The notes under the pieces: model-generated
Databases searched by the model: none
What the model saw: only the letters and a program-made list of their open reading frames with translations
What the model was told of the DNA's origin: nothing
Made by a program: the position numbers and the translations under genes
DNA from: Prevotella sp.
Lineage (GTDB): Bacteria; Bacteroidota; Bacteroidia; Bacteroidales; Bacteroidaceae
Assembly: GCA_017619275.1 (NCBI GenBank)
Contig: JAFZSR010000127.1
Span: 1 to 32,347, forward strand
Length of the DNA stretch: 32,347 nucleotides
Direction of reading: 5' to 3'
In this document: positions 424 through 32,347 of the stretch, piece after piece
Numbering within the stretch: the stretch's first letter is position 1
Layout: each line of letters begins with the position of its first letter

Positions 424-1392
424 ATGAAAAATATATTGGTAATTGGCTCAACGGGGCAGATTGGCTCGGAGTTGACGATGGAGCTACGGCGGCGATATGG
501 CGGCGACCATGTGGTGGCTGGCTACATCAAGGGAGCCGAGCCCAAAGGCGACCTGGAGGCCAGCGGTCCGCACGCCGTGGCCGACGTCACCGACGCCGAA
601 GGCATCCTCAACATTGTGAAAACCCACCACATCGACACCATCTACAACTTGGCGGCGCTGCTCTCGGTGGTGGCCGAGTCGAAGCCCCGCCTGGCCTGGC
701 AGATTGGCATCGACGGGCTTTGGAACGTCCTGGAGGTGGCCCGCGCGGAGCATTGCGCCGTGTTCACCCCCAGCTCGATAGGCTCGTTTGGACTGGAGAC
801 GCCCCACGACATGACCCCGCAGGACACCATCCAGCGCCCACGTACCATCTACGGCGTGTCGAAGGTGACCACCGAGCTGCTCAGCGACTGGTTTCACCAT
901 AAGTATGGCGTGGACACGCGCTCGGTTCGTTTCCCCGGCATCATCAGCCATGTGACGCCTCCCGGCGGAGGCACCACCGACTACGCCGTCGACATCTATT
1001 ACTATGCCGTGCGTGGACAGAAGTTCACCTGCCCCATCAAGGCCGGCACCCGCATGGACATGATGTATATGCCCGACGCCCTGCGTGCCGCCATCGAACT
1101 GATGGAGGCCGACCCCACGCGGCTGGTGCATCACAACGGATTCAACGTGGCCGCCATGAGCTTCGACCCCGACATGATTTTCCACGCCATCCGCAAGCTG
1201 CGCCCCGCCTTCGAGATGGACTACAACGTGGACCCGCTGAAGCAGTCTATAGCCGAGTCGTGGCCCGACATGATGGACGACAGCTGCGCCCGCCGCGAGT
1301 GGGGATGGGAGCACCACTACGGACTGATAGACATGACGGCCGACATGCTGCAGAAGCTGAGCGAGCGACTGGAACGCGATGGAAGCATCTGA
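424..1392 (+). CDS. NAD-dependent epimerase/dehydratase, SDR-type L-threonine 3-dehydrogenase-like
   Basis: This 322-residue extended short-chain dehydrogenase has the Rossmann motif GSTGQIG at residues 8-14 and the catalytic YGVSK (Tyr143, Lys147). The segment around TPSSIGSFG, TPQDTIQRPRTIYGVSK and VRFPGIIS is characteristic of the UDP-glucose-4-epimerase-like L-threonine dehydrogenases of Bacteroidetes, which oxidise L-threonine to 2-amino-3-ketobutyrate with NAD+ in the cytoplasm. The frame is open further upstream to 346, but the promoter lies in that extension and MKNILVIG is the natural N-terminus. The usual partner, 2-amino-3-ketobutyrate CoA ligase, is not next to it. Its last 14 bp overlap the start of the helicase gene, which suggests translational coupling. 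Another sugar-nucleotide epimerase is possible but less likely. Confidence 0.85.
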   Translation: MKNILVIGSTGQIGSELTMELRRRYGGDHVVAGYIKGAEPKGDLEASGPHAVADVTDAEGILNIVKTHHIDTIYNLAALLSVVAESKPRLAWQIGIDGLWNVLEVARAEHCAVFTPSSIGSFGLETPHDMTPQDTIQRPRTIYGVSKVTTELLSDWFHHKYGVDTRSVRFPGIISHVTPPGGGTTDYAVDIYYYAVRGQKFTCPIKAGTRMDMMYMPDALRAAIELMEADPTRLVHHNGFNVAAMSFDPDMIFHAIRKLRPAFEMDYNVDPLKQSIAESWPDMMDDSCARREWGWEHHYGLIDMTADMLQKLSERLERDGSI

Positions 1393-4300
1393 ACTATTCG
1401 ACATCTGCCAAGACTTGGCTGCCAATCCTCCCGGAGCAGAGGCAACCAGCCAACTGCACCAGGTGCTGGTGCTGACATGTGCCGAGGGCTGCCGCCAACA
1501 GGGCGGTGCCTTCGGCAACTTGTTTTCGCAGGTGGACTTCCTGTGCAAGCGGTTGGGGCTGTCGGCGACGCAGACATTCGACGTGCAGACGGCTCGACGG
1601 CACACCAACAGCGGGCACCCCATCGACCCAGCCGACTGGCCCTACGACGTGATGGCCGTGGCGCGTCTGGTGTCGGCGGTGTTTCGCGCCGATGTGCCCG
1701 GCACGCTGTTGCAGCTGCTGCCCGTCAATGAGCGCCCACGTGAGAAGGGGCTGCGCATCAACAAGGACTATGTGCGCTGCATCGTGGACCGTGTGGAACA
1801 GGACTTCATCCACGCCCATACGGACGATGGCCCCCTCGTCGTTGACTACCGCAACACCGACGACGGGCGCGACTTTGCCTATCTGCAGAAGCTGCTGCGC
1901 CCCGGCATGCAGATGAACCTGCTCGACAGTCATGTCGACGACCAAAGGGCCGATCTCGCCCCTGTGGTGGTGCCCACCATCGTGGTGGTGGAGCCCGATT
2001 TCCTCATCGACATCTCGTCGCTCGCCGCCTGCTTCACCGACTACGGCCACCACGCGCTGCTCTACACGCTGAACCGCCTGAAGGAAAACGCGAACACGCA
2101 GGCCATCCTGATAGGAAACTTCGCTGGCACGGCCCTCGACGACATCATCCGCCTCCAGCGCGAAGAGAAGAACTACGATGCGCTCACCGACGAGGACATC
2201 GCCGCTCGCTCGTTGCGCCGCTTCTTCCGCGAGCAAGCGCTGCGGCTCTTGGCCTGTAGCGATTTCGATGCCACCCAGTTCAAGCAGATGGCTGTGGAGC
2301 AGGTGAAGAACATCCGCGAGGCAGTGAAGATCATCGGCAACGCCGCCGCCTCGTTCCTGCTGGAGCCTTCCTTCGTGAGCGAGCATCTGGGCGTGCAGGG
2401 CCGTGTAGACCTGATGAGCGACATCAGTCCCGACGCCGCCCAACGCGGAACGCTGCTGGTGGAGCAGAAAGCGGGCCGCAACTACAAGATTGAATACGGC
2501 AGCCACGACAGCCACGGCCTTCAGGTAGAGACCCACTATGTGCAGCTGCTGCTCTACTATGCCGTGCTGCGCTACAACTTCGGCCTTTCCGACCGACGCG
2601 TTGACATGCGTCTGCTCTATTCGCGCTATCCTGCGGCGAAGGGTCTGCTCACGGTGAACTACTACCGCACGCTGCTGCGCGAGGCTCTGTGTCTGCGCAA
2701 CAAAATCGTGGCCACCGAGCTGCTCATCGCCCGCGATGGCTTCGGCCGCATCGCCCCCCTCTTGACTGTTGATTTTATATATAAAGGTTATGCGCGTGAT
2801 GCCCATTTCCACCGCTATGTGGAACCTCCTGTCGTCCAGCTGTCGCGTCACCTGGCAATGCTCTCCCCGCTTGAACGCACCTACTACGAGCGCATGCTCA
2901 CCTTCGTCTATCGCGAACAGTTGGCTGCCAAGATTGGTTCGGCCGAAATGCGCCTACACCATAGCGGCGGCAGCACCGCCGACCTGTGGCAGATGTCGCT
3001 GGCCGAGAAGATAGAGACGGGGAATATTATAATCGGACACGTACCCTCCCAAGAAACCTTACCCCAAGTCCCCACCGGACCCACCCCCAGCCCCTCCCTG
3101 CAGGGAGGGGAGCAGATAGTTTTGCTGCAAATAAATCAAATGGCAAGTCTATATACGCCCCTCCCTACAAGGGAGGGGATGGGGGAGGGTCCGATGGGTC
3201 TGGAGGGTCCGGTGGGTCCGCTTAGCGGCCTTCTTAACTTCCGCCCCGGCGACATGGTCTACCTCTATGCCTTCAGGGGCGAGCCCGACGTTAGGCACAG
3301 CGTGCTGTTCAAGGCCACATTGAAGGAGCTGGGTACCGACACGGTGACGCTGGTGATGACCGACGTGCAGCAGAATGCCGACCTCTTCAACCCTGCACAA
3401 CAGCGATTGTGGGCGGTGGAGCATGCCGGCAACGACGTGGGCACGGGGTCGGCCATCCGCTCGCTGCAGCAGTTCATCACCTCCTGCCCCGACCGTCGAC
3501 AGCTGCTGCTGGGACAACGACCACCACGAGCCAATACTGGACTACGGCTGAGCCGAAACTACCATCCCGACTACGACGAGGTGCTGTTGCGCATCAAGCA
3601 GGCCCGCGATTATTTCCTGCTGGTGGGGCCGCCCGGCACAGGCAAGACCTCCATGGCCCTGCGCTTCATGGTGGAAGAGGAAGAGCAGGGCAACATCCTC
3701 CTCATGGCCTACACCAACCGCGCCGTCGACGAGATTTGCGACATGCTCTGCCAGGCGGGAAAGGCGTTCCTGCGCATCGGACGAACAGCCTCGTGCGATG
3801 AGCGCTTCCGCCCCTACCTGCTCGACGTGGCGCTGGCCAACAGTCAGCACCTCAGCGACGCCCAGCAGCTGGTCGACACCACGCACATCATCGTCTCCAC
3901 CACGTCGATGCTGCTCTCCCAGTCGTGGGTGCTGCAGCTGAAACACTTTGCGCTGGCCATCGTCGACGAGGCGTCGCAGATTCTGGAGCCGGGGCTGATG
4001 GGTCTGCTCAGCAGCGAGGCCGTGGAGCGCTTCGTGCTCGTGGGCGACCACAAGCAGCTGCCTGCCGTGGTGCAGCAGGCCCCCGAGCAGAGCGTGGTGA
4101 CCGAGCAGTGTCTGCGTGACATCTGCCTCGACGATTGCCGCCATAGCCTTTTCGAGCGACTGCTGCGCTGGGAGCGGCAGCAGGGGCGCACATCGTTCAT
4201 TGGCACCCTGCATGCCCATGGTCGCATGCACTCCGCCGTGGCTCGTTTCCCCCTCACTCATTTCTATCAGCGCGAAGAGCTGCATGCCGTGCCCCTGCCG

Positions 4301-4921
4301 CACCAGCGCGAGGATGACCTGGGCTACGACCTGCCCGCCCGCGACCATCTGGACGAACTGCTGAAGACAAGGAGAATATTGTTTATAGACACGGCCCCGG
4401 CCCCCTCCAACCTCCCCCAACTGGGGGAGGCTTTCCCTGCGACTTCCTCATGCGGAGCAGCCTCCCCCAGTTGGGAGAGGTTGGAGGGGGCCGGGGCTGG
4501 GTTGGAGGGGGACCTAGTTGCTGACCTGCTGAATCGTATCTATCGTTTCACAGCCAGCCATTTCATCCCGTCGAGGACCGTGGGGGTGATTGTGCCCTAT
4601 CGGCGGCAGATAGCCCTCATTCGCCAGGCGATGGTCGGGACGCCCTTGGAGCAGATAGGCAGCGACATCTGCATCGACACCGTGGAGCGCTATCAGGGCA
4701 GCCAGCGCGATGTCATCATCTTCAGCTTCGGCGTCACCCACCGTTTCCAGCTCGATTTCCTCACGGCCAGCACCTTTGCCGACGACGACGGCACACTGGT
4801 CGACCGCAAGCTGAACGTAGCACTCACCCGTGCCCGCCGCCAAATGATTATCGTGGGGCAGTCGTCCGTGCTGAACCATGTCCCTCTGTTCCGGCAACTC
4901 ATCGATAGCTACAGCGATTAA
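1379..4921 (+). CDS. Fusion of PD-(D/E)XK nuclease and superfamily 1 (Dna2-like) helicase, with two repeat-derived inserts
   Basis: The 1180-residue protein has a RecB/Cas4-like nuclease signature in its N-terminal half (GRVDL with Asp344, then EQK with Glu362 and Lys364). The C-terminal SF1B helicase has Walker A GPPGTGKT at 750-757, DEAS at 863-866, GDHKQLP from 889, TVERYQGSQRD, and NVALTRAR near 1146-1153. The arrangement resembles Dna2-type nuclease-helicases, so it probably acts on DNA flaps or ends during repair; the exact role is unknown. Two stretches look foreign to the fold: residues about 566-614 (Pro/Gly-rich, between nuclease and helicase) and about 1006-1041 (inside the helicase half). 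Both are encoded by GC-rich palindromes (3076-3220 and 4394-4500) that keep the frame open. The ATG overlaps the previous gene by 14 bp. Confidence 0.85.
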   Translation: MEASELFDICQDLAANPPGAEATSQLHQVLVLTCAEGCRQQGGAFGNLFSQVDFLCKRLGLSATQTFDVQTARRHTNSGHPIDPADWPYDVMAVARLVSAVFRADVPGTLLQLLPVNERPREKGLRINKDYVRCIVDRVEQDFIHAHTDDGPLVVDYRNTDDGRDFAYLQKLLRPGMQMNLLDSHVDDQRADLAPVVVPTIVVVEPDFLIDISSLAACFTDYGHHALLYTLNRLKENANTQAILIGNFAGTALDDIIRLQREEKNYDALTDEDIAARSLRRFFREQALRLLACSDFDATQFKQMAVEQVKNIREAVKIIGNAAASFLLEPSFVSEHLGVQGRVDLMSDISPDAAQRGTLLVEQKAGRNYKIEYGSHDSHGLQVETHYVQLLLYYAVLRYNFGLSDRRVDMRLLYSRYPAAKGLLTVNYYRTLLREALCLRNKIVATELLIARDGFGRIAPLLTVDFIYKGYARDAHFHRYVEPPVVQLSRHLAMLSPLERTYYERMLTFVYREQLAAKIGSAEMRLHHSGGSTADLWQMSLAEKIETGNIIIGHVPSQETLPQVPTGPTPSPSLQGGEQIVLLQINQMASLYTPLPTREGMGEGPMGLEGPVGPLSGLLNFRPGDMVYLYAFRGEPDVRHSVLFKATLKELGTDTVTLVMTDVQQNADLFNPAQQRLWAVEHAGNDVGTGSAIRSLQQFITSCPDRRQLLLGQRPPRANTGLRLSRNYHPDYDEVLLRIKQARDYFLLVGPPGTGKTSMALRFMVEEEEQGNILLMAYTNRAVDEICDMLCQAGKAFLRIGRTASCDERFRPYLLDVALANSQHLSDAQQLVDTTHIIVSTTSMLLSQSWVLQLKHFALAIVDEASQILEPGLMGLLSSEAVERFVLVGDHKQLPAVVQQAPEQSVVTEQCLRDICLDDCRHSLFERLLRWERQQGRTSFIGTLHAHGRMHSAVARFPLTHFYQREELHAVPLPHQREDDLGYDLPARDHLDELLKTRRILFIDTAPAPSNLPQLGEAFPATSSCGAASPSWERLEGAGAGLEGDLVADLLNRIYRFTASHFIPSRTVGVIVPYRRQIALIRQAMVGTPLEQIGSDICIDTVERYQGSQRDVIIFSFGVTHRFQLDFLTASTFADDDGTLVDRKLNVALTRARRQMIIVGQSSVLNHVPLFRQLIDSYSD
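3076..3220 (+). repeat. GC-rich palindromic element inside the helicase gene (copy 1)
   Basis: Two imperfect inverted arms, 3076-3110 and 3158-3193, flank an AT-richer core of 47 bp. Each arm contains its own palindrome: CCCCTCCCTGCAGGGAGGGG at 3091-3110 and a near-identical one at 3158-3178. A tail to 3220 repeats GGGTCCG-like 9-mers. The whole element is translated in frame, giving PSPSLQGG, then a core, then TPLPTREG. The core AGTCTATATAC and AGCAGATA are shared with the element in dnaG. Confidence 0.85.
4394..4500 (+). repeat. GC-rich palindromic element inside the helicase gene (copy 2)
   Basis: The left arm 4394-4432 (GGCCCCGGCCCCCTCCAACC and onward) and the right arm 4459-4500 are near-perfect reverse complements around a 26-bp centre. 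Each arm also carries a smaller palindrome, CCTCCCCCAACTGGGGGAGG at 4411-4430. It reads in frame as a Pro/Gly/Ala/Ser-rich peptide interrupting the helicase half. Its arm sequence differs from copy 1, so it is a separate subfamily. Confidence 0.8.
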
Positions 4922-5015: not shown

Positions 5016-5080
5016 AAAAAAGTCAACGAGATTTTTCAAAAAATGAACGAGATTTTTCAAAAAGTCAACGACTTTTTTTC
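5016..5080. repeat. AT-rich palindromic repeat, probable terminator region (site A)
   Basis: Three units of about 21 bp follow the pattern A5-6, GTCAACGAG or TGAACGAG, ATTTTTC. They end in an AAAAAGTC-AAC-GACTTTTT hairpin (5059-5077) with a T tract to 5079. The site lies between the convergent helicase and lipoprotein genes. The same units recur at 15010-15075 and 31635-31722. Confidence 0.7.
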
Positions 5081-5149
5081 GTGGGGAGCACTCCTATCTT
5101 TTTTTACACTTAAATGCGGATAATCATTCGGTGCAATAAAAACACAAAA

Positions 5150-5211: not shown

Positions 5212-5237
5212 GTCTAAGTTGTCTTTAAAACAACAAG

Positions 5238-5370
5238 GCGCAGCCACTCCCCTCCCTTTCAAGGGGAGGGGCAGGGGTGGGGTCTGTATATTCTTCATTC
5301 GCAGGATTTTAGAGACCCCACCCCTTCCCCCTCCCCGTAAGGGCAGGGTTCAGGAGGGGAGTGGCTGCGC
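5238..5370. repeat. Intergenic GC-rich palindromic element with perfect terminal inverted repeats
   Basis: The ends are perfect 18-bp inverted repeats: GCGCAGCCACTCCCCTCC at 5238-5255 and its complement at 5353-5370. Inside are a second perfect inverted pair (AGGGGTGGGGTCT at 5273-5285, complement at 5313-5325) and sub-palindromes of the CCCCTCC...GGAGGGG kind. It lies 15 bp beyond the lipoprotein stop codon and resembles the elements inside genes, so it may show what a whole element looks like. It may also end transcription. Confidence 0.8.
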
Positions 5371-5385
5371 GTCGTTTATCACAAG

Positions 5386-6110: not shown

Positions 6111-7172
6111 TCAGTAGGCTTCGCGGTACTTGCTCTCGTCTTTGTCGTTGAGCATCGAGACGTAGCTTTGGTAGCGGCTTTGGGCGATGAGGTGGTCGTC
6201 GAGCGCGCGTAGCACGGCACAGCCTGGCTCGTGGGTGTGGGTGCAGTTGGAGAAGCGGCAGTCTTTCGAGAAGCGGAAGATTTCCTTGAAATAGCCCGAA
6301 ATCTCCTCAGGCTCCATGTCGAAAGTGCCGAAACCCTTGATGCCCGGGGTGTCGATGAGATAAGCCCCCCCTACGGCCCCCGATAAGGGAGAAGCCCCCC
6401 CTACGGCCCCCGAGGGGGTTTCTATAGTTTTGCCTGTAGCAGGGTCTATCGTAGCCCCCTCGGGGGCTGAAGGGGGGGCTAGTGCGGGGCCTATCGGTAT
6501 CATCTCGCTGAAGGTGGTGGTGTGCATGCCGGTGTTGTGGGCGTCGCTGATTTCGGCTGTGCGCAGGTTGGCATCGGGCACCAGGCGGTTGATGAGTGTC
6601 GATTTGCCTACGCCGCTGTTGCCGCTCAGCAGTGTGATTTTGCCATTGAGCAGGGGGCGCAGGGCATCGAGTCCGCTGCCCGTGGCGGCCGAGATTTGCA
6701 GACAGTGGTAGCCCACCGTCTCGTAGAGCGTCACCATCATCTGCTGTAGACGGCGCTCATCATCGTCGAGCAGGTCGGTCTTGTTGAACGCCAGCACCAC
6801 GGGCACGCGGTAGGCCTCGGCCGAGGCCAGGAAGCGGTCGATGAACGTGGTGCTGGTCTCTGGGCGCACCACCGTCACCACAAGTAGAGCCTGGTCGACA
6901 TTGGCCGCCAGGATGTGGCTCTGCTTCGACAGATTGATGCTCTTGCGGATGATGTAGTTGCGGCGGTCTTCAATGGCGGTGATGAAGGCCGCGTCGTGCT
7001 CGCCTTGCGGCGCCAGCACCTCCACGCGGTCGCCCACGGCCACGGGGTTGGTGCTGCGAATGCCCTTCAGGCGGAAGTTGCCCTTAATCTTACAATCAAG
7101 CAGCTGGCCACCGTCGGTGCGGACGGTGTACCAGCTGCCAGTATTCTTAATGACGAGTCCTTTCAACGCCAA
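6111..7172 (-). CDS. rsgA: Ribosome small-subunit-dependent GTPase RsgA with an in-frame insert
   Basis: RsgA is a circularly permuted GTPase that checks late maturation of the 30S subunit. The 353-residue protein has an N-terminal OB-fold (about 1-75), G4 NKTD at 130-133, G1 GNSGVGKS at 184-191, the HTTT switch at 217-220, G3 DTPG at 274-277, and a zinc site Cys305-x4-Cys310-x-His312-x5-Cys318. In relatives only about 10-15 residues separate HTTT from DTPG; here there are 53. The extra residues (about 229-270, with SGAVGGA twice) are encoded by a GC-rich palindromic repeat. All catalytic motifs are intact and the frame is unbroken, so the gene is probably functional unless the insert disturbs switch movement. 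frr lies 45 bp upstream. Confidence 0.95.
6362..6480 (-). repeat. GC-rich palindromic element inside rsgA
   Basis: The arms 6392-6418 and 6454-6480 (AGCCCCCCCTACGGCCCCCG and a near-complement) flank a 35-bp AT-richer core. A partial extra copy of the first arm precedes it as a 30-bp tandem unit (6362-6391). Read with the gene it gives [12 protein letters not shown] and [10 protein letters not shown]. The same arm and the TTCTATAGT edge occur in rseP at the right end of the window. Confidence 0.85.
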
Positions 7173-15009: not shown

Positions 15010-15075
15010 AAAAAATCTCGTACGAGATTTTTTCAAAAGTCGTTACCGTTTTTCAAAAAGTCGTTACCGAAATTT
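15010..15075. repeat. AT-rich palindromic repeat, probable terminator (site B)
   Basis: A perfect 24-bp palindrome (15010-15033; A6, TCTCGTACGAGA, T6) is followed by two units AAAAGTCGTTACCG with T/A runs. It lies 60 bp after the AraC stop and before the promoter of the 59-residue peptide gene, where a terminator would be expected. It is related in sequence to the repeats at 5016-5080 and 31635-31722. Confidence 0.7.
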
Positions 15076-17748: not shown

Positions 17749-17825
17749 CCGTCTAAAGTCTATCGTCTCTCATCTATAGTCTAAAGTCTATAGTCAACCG
17801 TCTACCGTCAATCCTCTTTAGTCAA
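17749..17825. repeat. 7-bp tandem repeat array between queD and queE
   Basis: About eleven degenerate heptamers with consensus NNGTCTA (CCGTCTA, AAGTCTA, TCGTCTC, TCATCTA, TAGTCTA, AAGTCTA, TAGTCAA and onward) occupy nearly the whole 75-bp gap. The last unit overlaps the queD stop codon. Confidence 0.75.
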
Positions 17826-18150
17826 CCTCGTAGCAGGCGATGTTGCCTTCACTCTCCTGCACGGTGCATTTGTAGCAGTGTGGCGTCTGCTCCACGCACC
17901 AGCGGGCGATGTTCTCCGCTGTGGGGTTGAAGGGCAACACGTCGTTCAGGTTCTGATGGTCCAGCTGTTGTTTGATGCGTCGTTTCACCTCGGTGAAGTC
18001 CACCACCATCCCGTTTTGGTTCAGCTCTTTTGCGCGGCAGTAGAGGGTGATTACCCAATTATGGCCGTGCAGCTGTGTGCATTTGCTCTCGTAGTCGACC
18101 GTCAGCCTGTGGCTGGCCGAGATTTCAAGTCTTTTCTGAATGTAGTACAT
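17818..18150 (-). CDS. queD: 6-carboxytetrahydropterin synthase QueD
   Basis: QueD converts dihydroneopterin triphosphate to 6-carboxytetrahydropterin in queuosine synthesis. The 110-residue protein carries the zinc ligands His14 (SASH), His28 and His30 (LHGHN), the catalytic Cys24, and the C-terminal ESEGN motif of the PTPS/QueD family; its size is normal for bacterial QueD. It starts 9 bp after the dnaG stop and precedes queE, so two consecutive pathway steps are coexpressed. queC and queF are not in the window. Confidence 0.95.
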   Translation of the reverse strand: MYYIQKRLEISASHRLTVDYESKCTQLHGHNWVITLYCRAKELNQNGMVVDFTEVKRRIKQQLDHQNLNDVLPFNPTAENIARWCVEQTPHCYKCTVQESEGNIACYEVD

Positions 18151-18159
18151 AGTTACGTT

Positions 18160-20205
18160 TTAAACAATGAGTTCGCGGCCCAGCCTGTTGGCCAGCATGT
18201 CGCGTATCTCCTTGGTTTCCTTATGTTCTTTTAGTAGTTGTATCTGCTGTTCGATGCTGGTGTCGGGGCTTCGCATCTGCCGTTCCAGTTCCTTCACGCG
18301 AGCCGAGACGATGTTGAACCGGAAGGTCATCACCAGGTTGACGATGAGCTGTTGCAAACCGTCTTCTTGTGGCTTTGGCACAAAGCGTCCGCCCAATTGG
18401 TGACGGTCGATGTCGAGCTTGGTGGCCAGCTGGCTTACCTGCGGGTCGGGATGTGAGCAGAAGTAGGTCTCGGCCTTGAAGCCCGGCTCACCACTATGCG
18501 CTGCCGCCTCGCTGAGTATCTGCTGGTACAGGGGTTGTGATAATTGCAGTCCATCCTGCGACAGGTCGTAGTCGATATACTGCGCCACGCTGAGCGAGAT
18601 GGTGCCGCCGTCGTCGGTCTCCACATTGTCGAAGATGATCTCTTCGCCGTGGCGCACAATCTCGCGCAAGAGGAGGAGTTCAATAGTAGAACCAGCAACA
18701 GGCCCAACAAGCCCTACAGACCCTCCCCCGGCCCCTCCCTGTGAGGGAAGCAAAGACCCTCCCCCGGCCCCTCCCTGTGAGGGAAGCAAAGACCCTCCCC
18801 CGGCCCCTCCCTGTGAGGGAGGGGAGTATATAGACTTGTCTGCTGCAAGAGTATCTGCTTCTCTCCCTTCAGTGTGATGGTGGGGCTGTTGGGCTTGCTG
18901 GTTGTTACCCACCTTTTTGTTCAGCTCGGCGATGAGCGTTTGCTCCTTCATGCCGATGCGGCGTGCCAAGTCGGTGATGTAGGTGGAGCGTAGTATCTGG
19001 TCGGGGATGACGCTGATGCTTTGCACGATGCCACCGATGGCCTCGCTGCGCTTTACGGGGTCGTCGGTGTTCTGCACCGTGAGGCGTGTCTTGAAGGTGA
19101 TAAAGTCTGTTTGGTTCTCGTCGATAAACTTCTTCAGTTCCTCGCTGCTGTGCTTGCGGGCGAAGCTGTCGGGGTCGTCGCCGTCGGGCAGTAGCAGCAC
19201 CTTGATGTTCATGCCCTCGGCTAGCAGCATATCGGTGCCGCGCATGGCGGCGTGGATGCCCGCCTCGTCGCCGTCGTAGAGCAGGGTGATGTTGCTTGTG
19301 AAGCGGTGGAGCAGGTGAATCTGATGGATGGAGAGCGCCGTGCCGCTGTTGGCCACCACGTTCTCGATGCCCGCCTGGTGCATGGCGATGACATCGGTGT
19401 AGCCCTCCACCATGAACACGCGGTCTTCCTTCACGATGGCTTTCTTCGCCTGGTAGATGCCGTATAGCTCGCGCTCCTTGTGGTAGATGTCGCTGTCGGG
19501 GCTGTTCACATACTTCTGCGCCACACCCTTGGTGCGGCTGTCGAGTACGCGTCCGCCAAAGGCCACCACCTTGCCGCTGACGTTCAGCCAAGGGAAGATG
19601 GCGCGACCTGAATAGCGGTCGTAGATGCCACGCTCGTTCTCGATACAAAGGCCGGTCTTGACGAGGAACTCTTTCTGATAGCCCTTGCTTGTTGCCTCTG
19701 TGCAGAGGGCATCGCGCCGCTGCGGGGCATAGCCCAGCTGGAAGCGCTCGATGATGTCGTCGCGGATGCCACGGCTGCGGAAATATTGTTTTCCTATGGC
19801 GATGCCGTCGGGGTCGTTTTTCAGTATTTGGTGAAACCAGTCCTTGGCCCACTCGTTGACGATGAACATCGAATCGCGCTCGCTTTGTGCCTGGCGCTCC
19901 TCGTCGGTGAGTTCTTTCTCAACGATTTCAATGTTGTATTTGCGTGCTAGCCAGCGCAGGGCTTCGGGATAGGTAATCTGCTCGTGCTCCATTAGGAAAC
20001 CGGCGGGCGTGCCGCCCTTTCCGCAGACAAAGCAGTGGCAGATGTTCTTCGCCGGCGACACCATGAACGAGGGGTTGCGGTCGTCGTGGAAGGGGCATAG
20101 TCCTTTGTAGTTCACACCGCTCTTGCGCAGTGTGACGAACTCGCCCACCACGTCGACGATGCGTGCTGCATCCAGGATTTTATCTACTGTAGCCCGGTCG
20201 ATCAT
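18160..20205 (-). CDS. dnaG: DNA primase with an in-frame repeat insert
   Basis: DnaG lays RNA primers for replication. The 681-residue protein has the CHC2 zinc finger (Cys37, His40, Cys58, Cys61), the RNA-polymerase core and Toprim (VFMVEGYTDVIAMHQ, then LLYDGDEAG). The C-terminal helicase-binding region starts near residue 510. Between core and C-terminal domain, residues about 437-505 form a low-complexity linker with SLLPSQGGAGGG repeated. It is encoded by a GC-rich palindromic element and its 36-bp tandem copies (18690-18895). A flexible linker is normal here, so the insert is probably tolerated. ATG 20205 begins the zinc-finger domain at the expected place. The double esterase gene ends 47 bp upstream on the same strand. 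Confidence 0.97.
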   Translation of the reverse strand: MIDRATVDKILDAARIVDVVGEFVTLRKSGVNYKGLCPFHDDRNPSFMVSPAKNICHCFVCGKGGTPAGFLMEHEQITYPEALRWLARKYNIEIVEKELTDEERQAQSERDSMFIVNEWAKDWFHQILKNDPDGIAIGKQYFRSRGIRDDIIERFQLGYAPQRRDALCTEATSKGYQKEFLVKTGLCIENERGIYDRYSGRAIFPWLNVSGKVVAFGGRVLDSRTKGVAQKYVNSPDSDIYHKERELYGIYQAKKAIVKEDRVFMVEGYTDVIAMHQAGIENVVANSGTALSIHQIHLLHRFTSNITLLYDGDEAGIHAAMRGTDMLLAEGMNIKVLLLPDGDDPDSFARKHSSEELKKFIDENQTDFITFKTRLTVQNTDDPVKRSEAIGGIVQSISVIPDQILRSTYITDLARRIGMKEQTLIAELNKKVGNNQQAQQPHHHTEGREADTLAADKSIYSPPSQGGAGGGSLLPSQGGAGGGSLLPSQGGAGGGSVGLVGPVAGSTIELLLLREIVRHGEEIIFDNVETDDGGTISLSVAQYIDYDLSQDGLQLSQPLYQQILSEAAAHSGEPGFKAETYFCSHPDPQVSQLATKLDIDRHQLGGRFVPKPQEDGLQQLIVNLVMTFRFNIVSARVKELERQMRSPDTSIEQQIQLLKEHKETKEIRDMLANRLGRELIV
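18690..18895 (-). repeat. GC-rich palindromic element with 36-bp tandem triplication inside dnaG
   Basis: On the plus strand, three copies of a 36-bp unit start near 18719, 18755 and 18791 (GACCCTCCCCCGGCCCCTCC, then CTGTGAGGG). An AT-richer core with TATATAGACTTG and ATCTGCTT follows to 18864, and a degenerate second arm to about 18895. Arm, core and tail line up with the helicase element at 3076-3220 and have the same orientation relative to the gene, but a different reading frame. As 36 is divisible by 3, the tandem copies preserve the frame. Confidence 0.85.
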
Positions 20206-25718: not shown

Positions 25719-25785
25719 CTAGGGAGACTAGTAGAACTAGGAAGACTAGTAGAACTAGGAAGACTAGTAAAACTAGGAAGACTAG
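25719..25785. repeat. 9-bp periodic CTAG array in a convergent spacer
   Basis: CTAG occurs at 25719, 25728, 25737, 25746, 25755, 25764, 25773 and 25782, exactly every 9 bp. Units alternate ACTAGTAGA and ACTAGGAAG, so the higher-order period is 18 bp. It lies between the two terminators of the convergent outer-membrane protein and adhesin genes. Confidence 0.85.
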
Positions 25786-31634: not shown

Positions 31635-31722
31635 CAAAAAAAAGGCGTTGACTTTTTGAAAAAAAGCGGCGAGATTTTTAAAAAAGTCGTTGAGATTTTT
31701 AAAAAACTCAACGACTTTTTTT
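31635..31722. repeat. AT-rich palindromic repeat, probable bidirectional terminator (site C)
   Basis: A 15-bp stem (AAAAAAGTCGTTGAG, 31680-31694, complement at 31707-31721) with a loop that is itself A/T palindromic, and T runs in both directions, lies between convergent genes. Upstream units (GGCGTTGACTTTTTG, GCGGCGAGATTTTT) match the repeats at 5016-5080 and 15010-15075. Confidence 0.75.
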
Positions 31723-31758
31723 CGTGTGGTGTAATCCCTTCTATTTCAACTAAATGAA

Positions 31759-31809: not shown

Positions 31810-32347
31810 TTACATGTAGCCCAGCCAGCGCAGGATGTCGTTGAGGTTGGCCACCACCATGAGGAGGATGAGGATGCCGAAGCCCACGTACTCGGCGCGA
31901 ATCATGAACTTGTCGGAAGGCTTGCGCCCAGTAATCATCTCGTAGAGCAGGAACAGCACATGGCCACCGTCGAGTGCGGGGATGGGCAGGATGTTCATGA
32001 AGGCGAGGATGATGCTGAGGAAGGCGGTCATCTCCCAGAAGCGGTGCCAGTCCCATACCTCGGGGAAGAGGCTGCCGATGGCTCCGAAGCCGCCCAGCGA
32101 CTTCGCTCCCTCGCTGGTGAAGACGTACTTCATGTCGCTGACGTAGCTTGCCAGCTTGTGCCAGCCGTAGCGGATGCCGGCGGGAATGCTCTCCCAGAAA
32201 CCGTACTTGAATGTCTGCGGCTCATACTTCGACACGGTGAAGAAGCCCAGCTTGAGCTCGCTGCTCAAGGTGACCTGGACGGTGTCGCGAGCACCCAGAG
32301 CCCCCCCTACGGCCCCCGAGGGGGCTTCTATAGTATTAGTGGCTTCA
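31810..32347 (-). CDS. rseP: Site-2 membrane metalloprotease RseP, C-terminal part
   Basis: The frame is open from the right edge to the stop at 31810 (179 residues); the N-terminus with the HExxH motif lies outside. The end reads NILPIPALDGGHVLFLLYEM, which contains the second zinc-site motif (LDGGH with the catalytic Asp) of RseP/YaeL proteases, followed by a final membrane helix (VGFGILILLMVVANLND). RseP cleaves membrane-embedded anti-sigma factors and signal-peptide remnants. At the window edge the residues [20 protein letters not shown] are encoded by part of a GC-rich palindromic element, placed in the periplasmic (PDZ-side) region. The TTG at 32268 is an internal Leu, not the start. 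Confidence 0.92.
   Translation of the reverse strand, partial: EATNTIEAPSGAVGGALGARDTVQVTLSSELKLGFFTVSKYEPQTFKYGFWESIPAGIRYGWHKLASYVSDMKYVFTSEGAKSLGGFGAIGSLFPEVWDWHRFWEMTAFLSIILAFMNILPIPALDGGHVLFLLYEMITGRKPSDKFMIRAEYVGFGILILLMVVANLNDILRWLGYM
32299..32347 (-). repeat. GC-rich palindromic element inside rseP, partial
   Basis: AGCCCCCCCTACGGCCCCCG, then AGGGGGCTTCTATAGT, matches the arm and core edge of the rsgA element at 6392-6430 with only small differences. The rest is beyond the window. It is read in the same frame in both genes. Confidence 0.8.

Follow-up and report, generated by a model that had tools for sequence, protein, structure and literature searches.

Rickettsia palindromic elements (RPEs) are short palindromic repeats of several families that lie in frame inside unrelated genes, according to two reports (PMC10969869, PMC3733652). 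Here we describe an element of this kind at positions 3077-3220 of a 32,347-nt stretch of Prevotella DNA (contig JAFZSR010000127.1; hereafter the window), which is contig 27 of a 3.59-Mb genome assembly that is 85% complete. To our knowledge no nuclease-bearing full-length form is on record for RPEs, and we know of no candidate enzyme for the movement of such protein-coding palindromic elements; in the Prevotella genome a candidate mover, a DUF559 nuclease, sits between the same arms as the short palindromic copies. The window element differs from RPEs in its host (Bacteroidales, not Rickettsiales), in its two hairpin arms with a variable spacer and in the existence of a nuclease-bearing full-length form, and the comparison is apt in the sense that the element appears to work like an RPE. 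We consider it probable, at roughly two chances in three, that it is an in-frame, non-autonomous derivative of a mobile element and that the full form of this element carries DUF559 between the arms.

Other described systems share single traits with this family. With Vsr-like (EDxHD) homing endonucleases such as I-Bth0305I our family shares the predicted nuclease fold and the insertion in conserved genes, in our case including a loop of leucyl-tRNA synthetase (LeuRS), but here a single nuclease domain stands between hairpin arms and is not seen in an intron or intein, the sites are many and dispersed, and gene-less derivatives exist. Two hosts scanned with Pfam (L122, L113) contained no intein/Hint domain, only host and nuclease domains (DUF559, MTES_1575). 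GC-rich hairpins in inverted pairs are common to our family and to repetitive extragenic palindromes (REPs), including bacterial interspersed mosaic elements and REPINs, with their REP-associated tyrosine transposases (RAYTs), but the gene between the arms is here DUF559 and not a Y1 transposase, and the sole Y1_Tnp gene of the genome has other repeats. Mobile GC-rich palindromes are also reported as yeast mitochondrial GC clusters (PMC4478555) and as double-hairpin elements; ours are bacterial and tied to a nuclease gene between the arms. Terminal inverted repeats are present, as in a miniature inverted-repeat transposable element of a DDE insertion sequence, but the target-site duplication of such an element was not found on 52 nuclease-bearing copies.

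The element lies in frame in an open reading frame (ORF) of 1180 aa for an AAA_11/AAA_12-type helicase (1379-4921, plus strand), a gene that holds two inserts of different families. It is short, gene-less and palindromic, with outer GGGTC-rich tails, and all its parts are on the plus strand: the left tail GGACCCACCCCCAG (3077-3090), the left arm hairpin CCCCTCCCTGCAGGGAGGGG (3091-3110), the left inner arm AGCAGATAGTTTTGC (3111-3125), an ATG at 3140 with the right inner arm (3140-3156, ATGGC followed by AAGTCTATATAC at 3145-3156), the right arm hairpin CCCCTCCCTACAAGGGAGGGG (3158-3178) and a tandem tail of 1.9 copies of an 18-bp unit (3184-3218). The ATG is internal here and read as M-A-S-L-Y-T. 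The tail ends at about 3220, and the copy is complete.

A second copy (18690-18895, minus strand) interrupts dnaG (681 aa, 18160-20205, minus strand), the one match to a full-length DnaG that this genome, 85% complete, contains, on the C-terminal side of the DnaB_bind match (residues 379-421). It has a perfect hairpin at 18804-18824 on the minus strand, the complement of AAGTCTATATAC at 18826-18837 and that of GCAGATACTCTTGC at 18845-18858; the left hairpin is degenerate, which leaves this copy with one intact hairpin arm of two, and the right hairpin-plus-tail unit forms a 36-bp tandem repeat of 2.9 copies (18718-18820). A sequence-only reading of the window had stated that arms, core and GGGTC-rich tail recur in both copies with their order and their orientation relative to the gene unchanged, and that one core is translated in two frames. 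Our results bear out both statements. Where the exact AAGTCTATATAC is kept, the helicase and a DegT-family ORF (L028) read it in phase 2, and dnaG and eight other copies in phase 0; the usual peptide reading is ...GRGVDSSA...GKSIYSPPYKGGAGGGS, and the other frame gives ...EQIV...SLYTPLPxREG in the window helicase and L028.

The strict hairpin, CCCCTCCCT-N(3-12)-AGGGAGGGG, occurs 37 times in the genome versus 0 times for a reversed-pattern control, and a looser form 159 times versus 0. The genome scan that the sequence-only reading had proposed returned many further copies: a blastn search with the element gave 87 matches at 40 distinct places, many of them partial. Similar DNA lies in unrelated genes, with identities outside the query itself of up to 85% and higher over short stretches. 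By eye, the consensus of the copies runs on the left from GACCCWCCCCC through the hairpin CCCCTCCCT-loop-AGGGAGGGG to AGTAGATAGTTCTGC, continues with a variable core, often with an ATG, and runs on the right from AAGTCTATATACT through the inverted hairpin to GGGGGWGGGTC; the two halves are mutual inverted repeats. Among 27 copies examined (mostly full-length, with partial and contig-end copies excluded), 22 lie inside ORFs of 250 aa or more and 4 inside shorter ones, while 1 is not open. Of the 22, 17 are in forward and 5 in reverse orientation (p 0.017). Like RPEs, these repeats are found in frame in unrelated ORFs. The insert peptides are glycine/proline-rich, and several are placed between host domains. 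Pfam assigned a family to 12 of 15 short-copy host ORFs and none to 3 (L024, L026, L027); by coordinates the insert falls within the matched range in an FAA hydrolase (L018), the DegT protein (L028) and a PPDK_N protein (L020), whereas in L022 it separates PAS from HisKA and in L038 HATPase_c from the response regulator.

Comparison with orthologues supports a dispersed repeat of mobile type. The helicase insert is missing in 18/18 aligned orthologues (17 fetched sequences and that of the relative G030), where the corresponding span measures 71-87 residues versus 116 in the window protein. An own-family insert was found in 0/20 DnaG loci of relatives, which come from 19 genomes and were drawn from 56 with a match among 60. 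For neither gene, then, do the orthologues examined share the insert. By eye, three relatives (G027, G022, G023) have other palindrome-type inserts in that DnaG linker, so that different element families occupy one linker in different species. A second recurrent insertion site, or variable site, in dnaG lies near residue 191-194 (L231-L235, in G034, G022, G023, G031 and G005). The sequence-only reading had looked to such comparisons for exact ends; nucleotide-level end points could not be set, because the DnaG of the nearest relative is only 84% identical in amino acids over its first 446 residues.

The full-length form came to light in a family copy with a long core, C112, which encodes a DUF559 protein, frameshifted there. 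The genome has DUF559 at four places, which give five matches because C112 is matched in two halves. In C110 and C112 the gene lies between arms of the window family; in C87 it lies between 51-nt arms of another family (49/51 identical), and at C77 weaker repeats were seen by eye only (scan score 9). The full layout is a left hairpin arm, the DUF559 gene and an inverted right hairpin arm, and the left inner arm of the helicase copy, AGCAGATAGTTTTGC, is similar to AGAAGATAGTTCTGC, which stands directly inside the left hairpin of C110. The predicted fold of DUF559 is that of Vsr and of homing endonucleases of the I-Bth0305I type, with invariant acidic residues; the residues regarded as catalytic are conserved. 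In one report, a single Thermosynechococcus DUF559 gene is placed in the EDxHD family (PMC9403480).

We surveyed 60 genomes (our own, 35 of the genus and 24 of other families) and found a DUF559 match, in some cases weak, in 28. A search of genome contigs confirmed at least 581 DUF559 loci, 80 of which were kept for arm analysis. Inverted arms scoring at least 19 within 260 bp flank 57 of these 80, compared with 5.4% of crosswise pairs, and arms scoring at least 15 flank 68 of them, compared with 12.1%. In related bacteria, then, matched arms are much commoner around DUF559 genes than in crosswise controls. Outside the order the association at the DNA level is weaker: in a phylum-wide sample 9 of 29 loci score at least 15 (crosswise, 3.2%). 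Among the matches listed, 78/80 named DUF559 loci kept are, by record title or tree label, from Bacteroidales and 2/80 from Flavobacteriaceae, and the nearest named relatives of the C110 protein are from Prevotella. Named isolates with DUF559 include Prevotella lacticifex JCM 34664 and P. veroralis DSM 19559, in which the system could be tested. In the open-licence PMC literature, mostly judged from listings, we found no paper that joins DUF559 with palindromic elements.

Full-length elements either run in frame with a host protein or begin at a stop codon. A check of 39 places found DUF559 in frame inside or joined onto LeuRS (G054, G037), a member of the window's helicase family (G030) and DegT (G001) and, by eye, in an ABC-F-like ATPase (G028) and fused to the N-termini of gmk, argB, RNase H and ispF. 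In LeuRS the insert falls between the residues that correspond to 236 and 242 of the Thermus thermophilus enzyme, and in G054 and G037, each 99% complete, the DUF559-bearing LeuRS is the only one. By eye the same loop is occupied again in L262 and L265, but DUF559 also has many dispersed sites. In other Bacteroidota, DUF559 is in frame inside proteins that by eye are LeuRS or MetH-, HsdR- or RecG-like (L262, L265, L282, L288, L266, L268, L203, L204).

The stop-codon count began with 117 loci, 78 of them with arms scoring at least 19; two were too close to a sequence end, which left 76. In 63/76 the left arm begins no more than 40 nt from the stop of an ORF of at least 100 aa on the same strand, versus 75/1520 random positions (4.9%), and in 40/76 it begins within 6 nt on either side of the stop, versus 18/1520; in 9 elements the stop codon is inside the arm. 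On the right side, an in-frame ATG located between 25 nt before the nuclease stop and the right arm reads into the next gene at 43/75 loci, and in 22 of the 43 this ATG lies between 8 nt upstream and 2 nt downstream of the stop; the remaining loci are fused (7), open without such an ATG (14) or separate (11). Openness through the right arm was set aside as stand-alone evidence, as other frames are open in 57/136 cases. Over 119 loci, DUF559 is on the same strand as its upstream neighbour in 82 and on the opposite strand in 3, and the corresponding counts for the downstream neighbour are 73 and 4, the rest being undecided. The elements look translation-neutral, and one form sits at gene junctions with an apparent translational restart. 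The RPE-like interpretation offered by the sequence-only reading was to this extent supported and incomplete: it contained neither the DUF559 full-length form, nor the junction form, nor the other element families of the window.

Hairpin counts also vary with the presence of nuclease genes. The CCCCTCCC hairpin is present in 20/35 relatives of the genus and 0/24 genomes of other families. Within the genus, the median number of hairpins is 8.5 in the 16 genomes with DUF559 and 0 in the 20 without (p 0.0017; p 0.018 after subtraction of two hairpins per DUF559), when split matches are merged and weak partial hits in G007, G017 and G020 are counted as absent; both p values are optimistic since the genomes are related. 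In G016, 11 of 31 hairpins are identical to the sequence flanking a DUF559 gene (L132), two of the 11 being those flanks. The proposal that the family is adapted to insert into coding sequence holds for the 22/27 copies above and not for relatives in general: ORFs of 250 aa or more hold 8/18 hairpin places in G023, 6/15 in G028 and 0/20 in G016, counts in which several places had only one pairable hairpin. Residence in ORFs was accordingly dropped as a general property of the copies. The G016 hairpins are of the same type, and that genome tolerates or targets other DNA instead.

We propose that the DUF559 nuclease would act as the mover. It would cut or nick DNA, the element with its arms and contents would be copied into the break by repair, and gene-less copies might use the nuclease in trans. 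Transparency to the reading frame may be selected because an element could then occupy genes and operons without inactivating them. We lean, by a little more than even odds, toward regarding these elements as a distinct class, in which a Vsr-fold nuclease between inverted hairpin arms owes its spread through conserved genes and the junctions of operons to transparency to translation. This transparency would come either from in-frame read-through or from a stop/start restart in which the element restores the 5' end of the following gene, and the same class would mobilise gene-less copies that encode peptides, like the window element. Strict site-specific homing is not part of this proposal, as DUF559 targets follow the tree only partly: a quick tree, built from 117 rows and few columns, with many unresolved forks and no shuffled comparison, requires the target label to change at least 32 times, with 19 labels in play.

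The chief alternative is that the palindromes are primary, moved like RPEs, miniature elements or GC clusters by an unrelated transposase or by recombination, and that DUF559 homes into their spacers as safe landing sites. That arm families vary between genomes while DUF559 is one protein family would fit such an order of events, as would the short copies of our genome, which far outnumber its DUF559 copies, and the genomes in which hairpins occur without detected DUF559. Many species have an element at the same junctions (leuC-, argC- and acyl-CoA-dehydrogenase-like and others, by eye), at some of them from different lineages, and the leuC-like junction is held by several DUF559 lineages with different arms. 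However, one supported DUF559 group with near-identical arms (L152, L153, L156, L157, L158) is found at several different genes, and therefore the whole unit appears to move. Nuclease-bearing elements, moreover, start mostly near stops whereas the short copies examined in our genome lie mostly in ORFs, a difference unexpected under random nuclease invasion, although selection could blur it. On balance we find this alternative unlikely. Movement of REP- or REPIN-type elements by a RAYT is a good deal less probable still. Paired GC-rich hairpins would suit it, and one report describes REPs within coding sequences and inverted repeats on either side of RAYT genes (PMC3733652), but the sole Y1_Tnp match of our genome is weak, at 24.4 bits against a cut-off of 23, and the inverted repeat around it is a different one, so that RAYT was rejected as the mover. 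No RAYT gene flanked by window-family repeats was found in this genome, which at 85% completeness could be missing a second one. The Y1 gene itself (L259, on C62) is RAYT-like and has its own inverted-repeat family in several copies. Least credible of all, and very improbable, is an origin as linker peptides that were domesticated long ago and passed down together with their host genes; in-frame glycine/proline-rich peptides, several of them between host domains, are what such linkers would look like, but the absence of the peptides from the examined orthologues already contradicts this, DNA of up to 85% identity recurs in unrelated genes, and one DnaG linker holds different families in different species.

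The reading of the window element as a gene-less copy of a DUF559-bearing one should be held against several observations that weigh on the other side. No cleavage or transposition has been observed. The cores of the short copies vary widely, and their descent from a DUF559 copy therefore rests on the arms and short flanking stretches. Arms were undetected at some DUF559 loci (23/80 score below 19, and 20/29 of the phylum sample below 15), four genomes with DUF559 have no such hairpin, and hairpins without detected DUF559 number 12 in G032, 8 in G027 and 7 in G022. The G016 places outside long ORFs (L289-L308) belong here as well, and placement at stop codons could come from selection alone. 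Beside the helicase insert, part of the host stretch is replaced or unalignable in the window protein, so that the insertion is not clean at residue level. Lastly, the target duplication for which the sequence-only reading had suggested looking did not appear on the 52 nuclease-bearing elements, flank identity being at or below the shuffled level for nearly all lengths from 2 to 9 nt.

If the proposal is true, it would account for the glycine/proline-rich inserts and the DUF559 domains of conserved proteins in Bacteroidota. It would also describe how essential enzymes could gain peptides, and even entire nuclease domains, from mobile DNA with no need for splicing.

Four further palindromic elements with other arm families lie in the window. 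The second insert of the helicase gene (4389-4513, plus strand) has a further copy in another ORF of the same genome (C85, L258). An intergenic element (5232-5376) consists of hairpin-plus-GGGGTGGGGTC units. An insert in rsgA (6359-6480, minus strand) has arms that, by eye, are like those flanking DUF559 in L102 (G023), and the start of an insert of the same type, cut by the window end, lies in a further ORF, RseP-like by eye (32295-32347, minus strand); the peptide type of these two inserts recurs beside the DUF559 gene of L102. A 21-bp repeat of the AAAAAGTCAACGAGATTTTTC type is found at 5016-5103, 15022-15069 and 31638-31746, and tandem repeats occur at 17751-17827 (14 bp) and 25719-25785 (9/18 bp).
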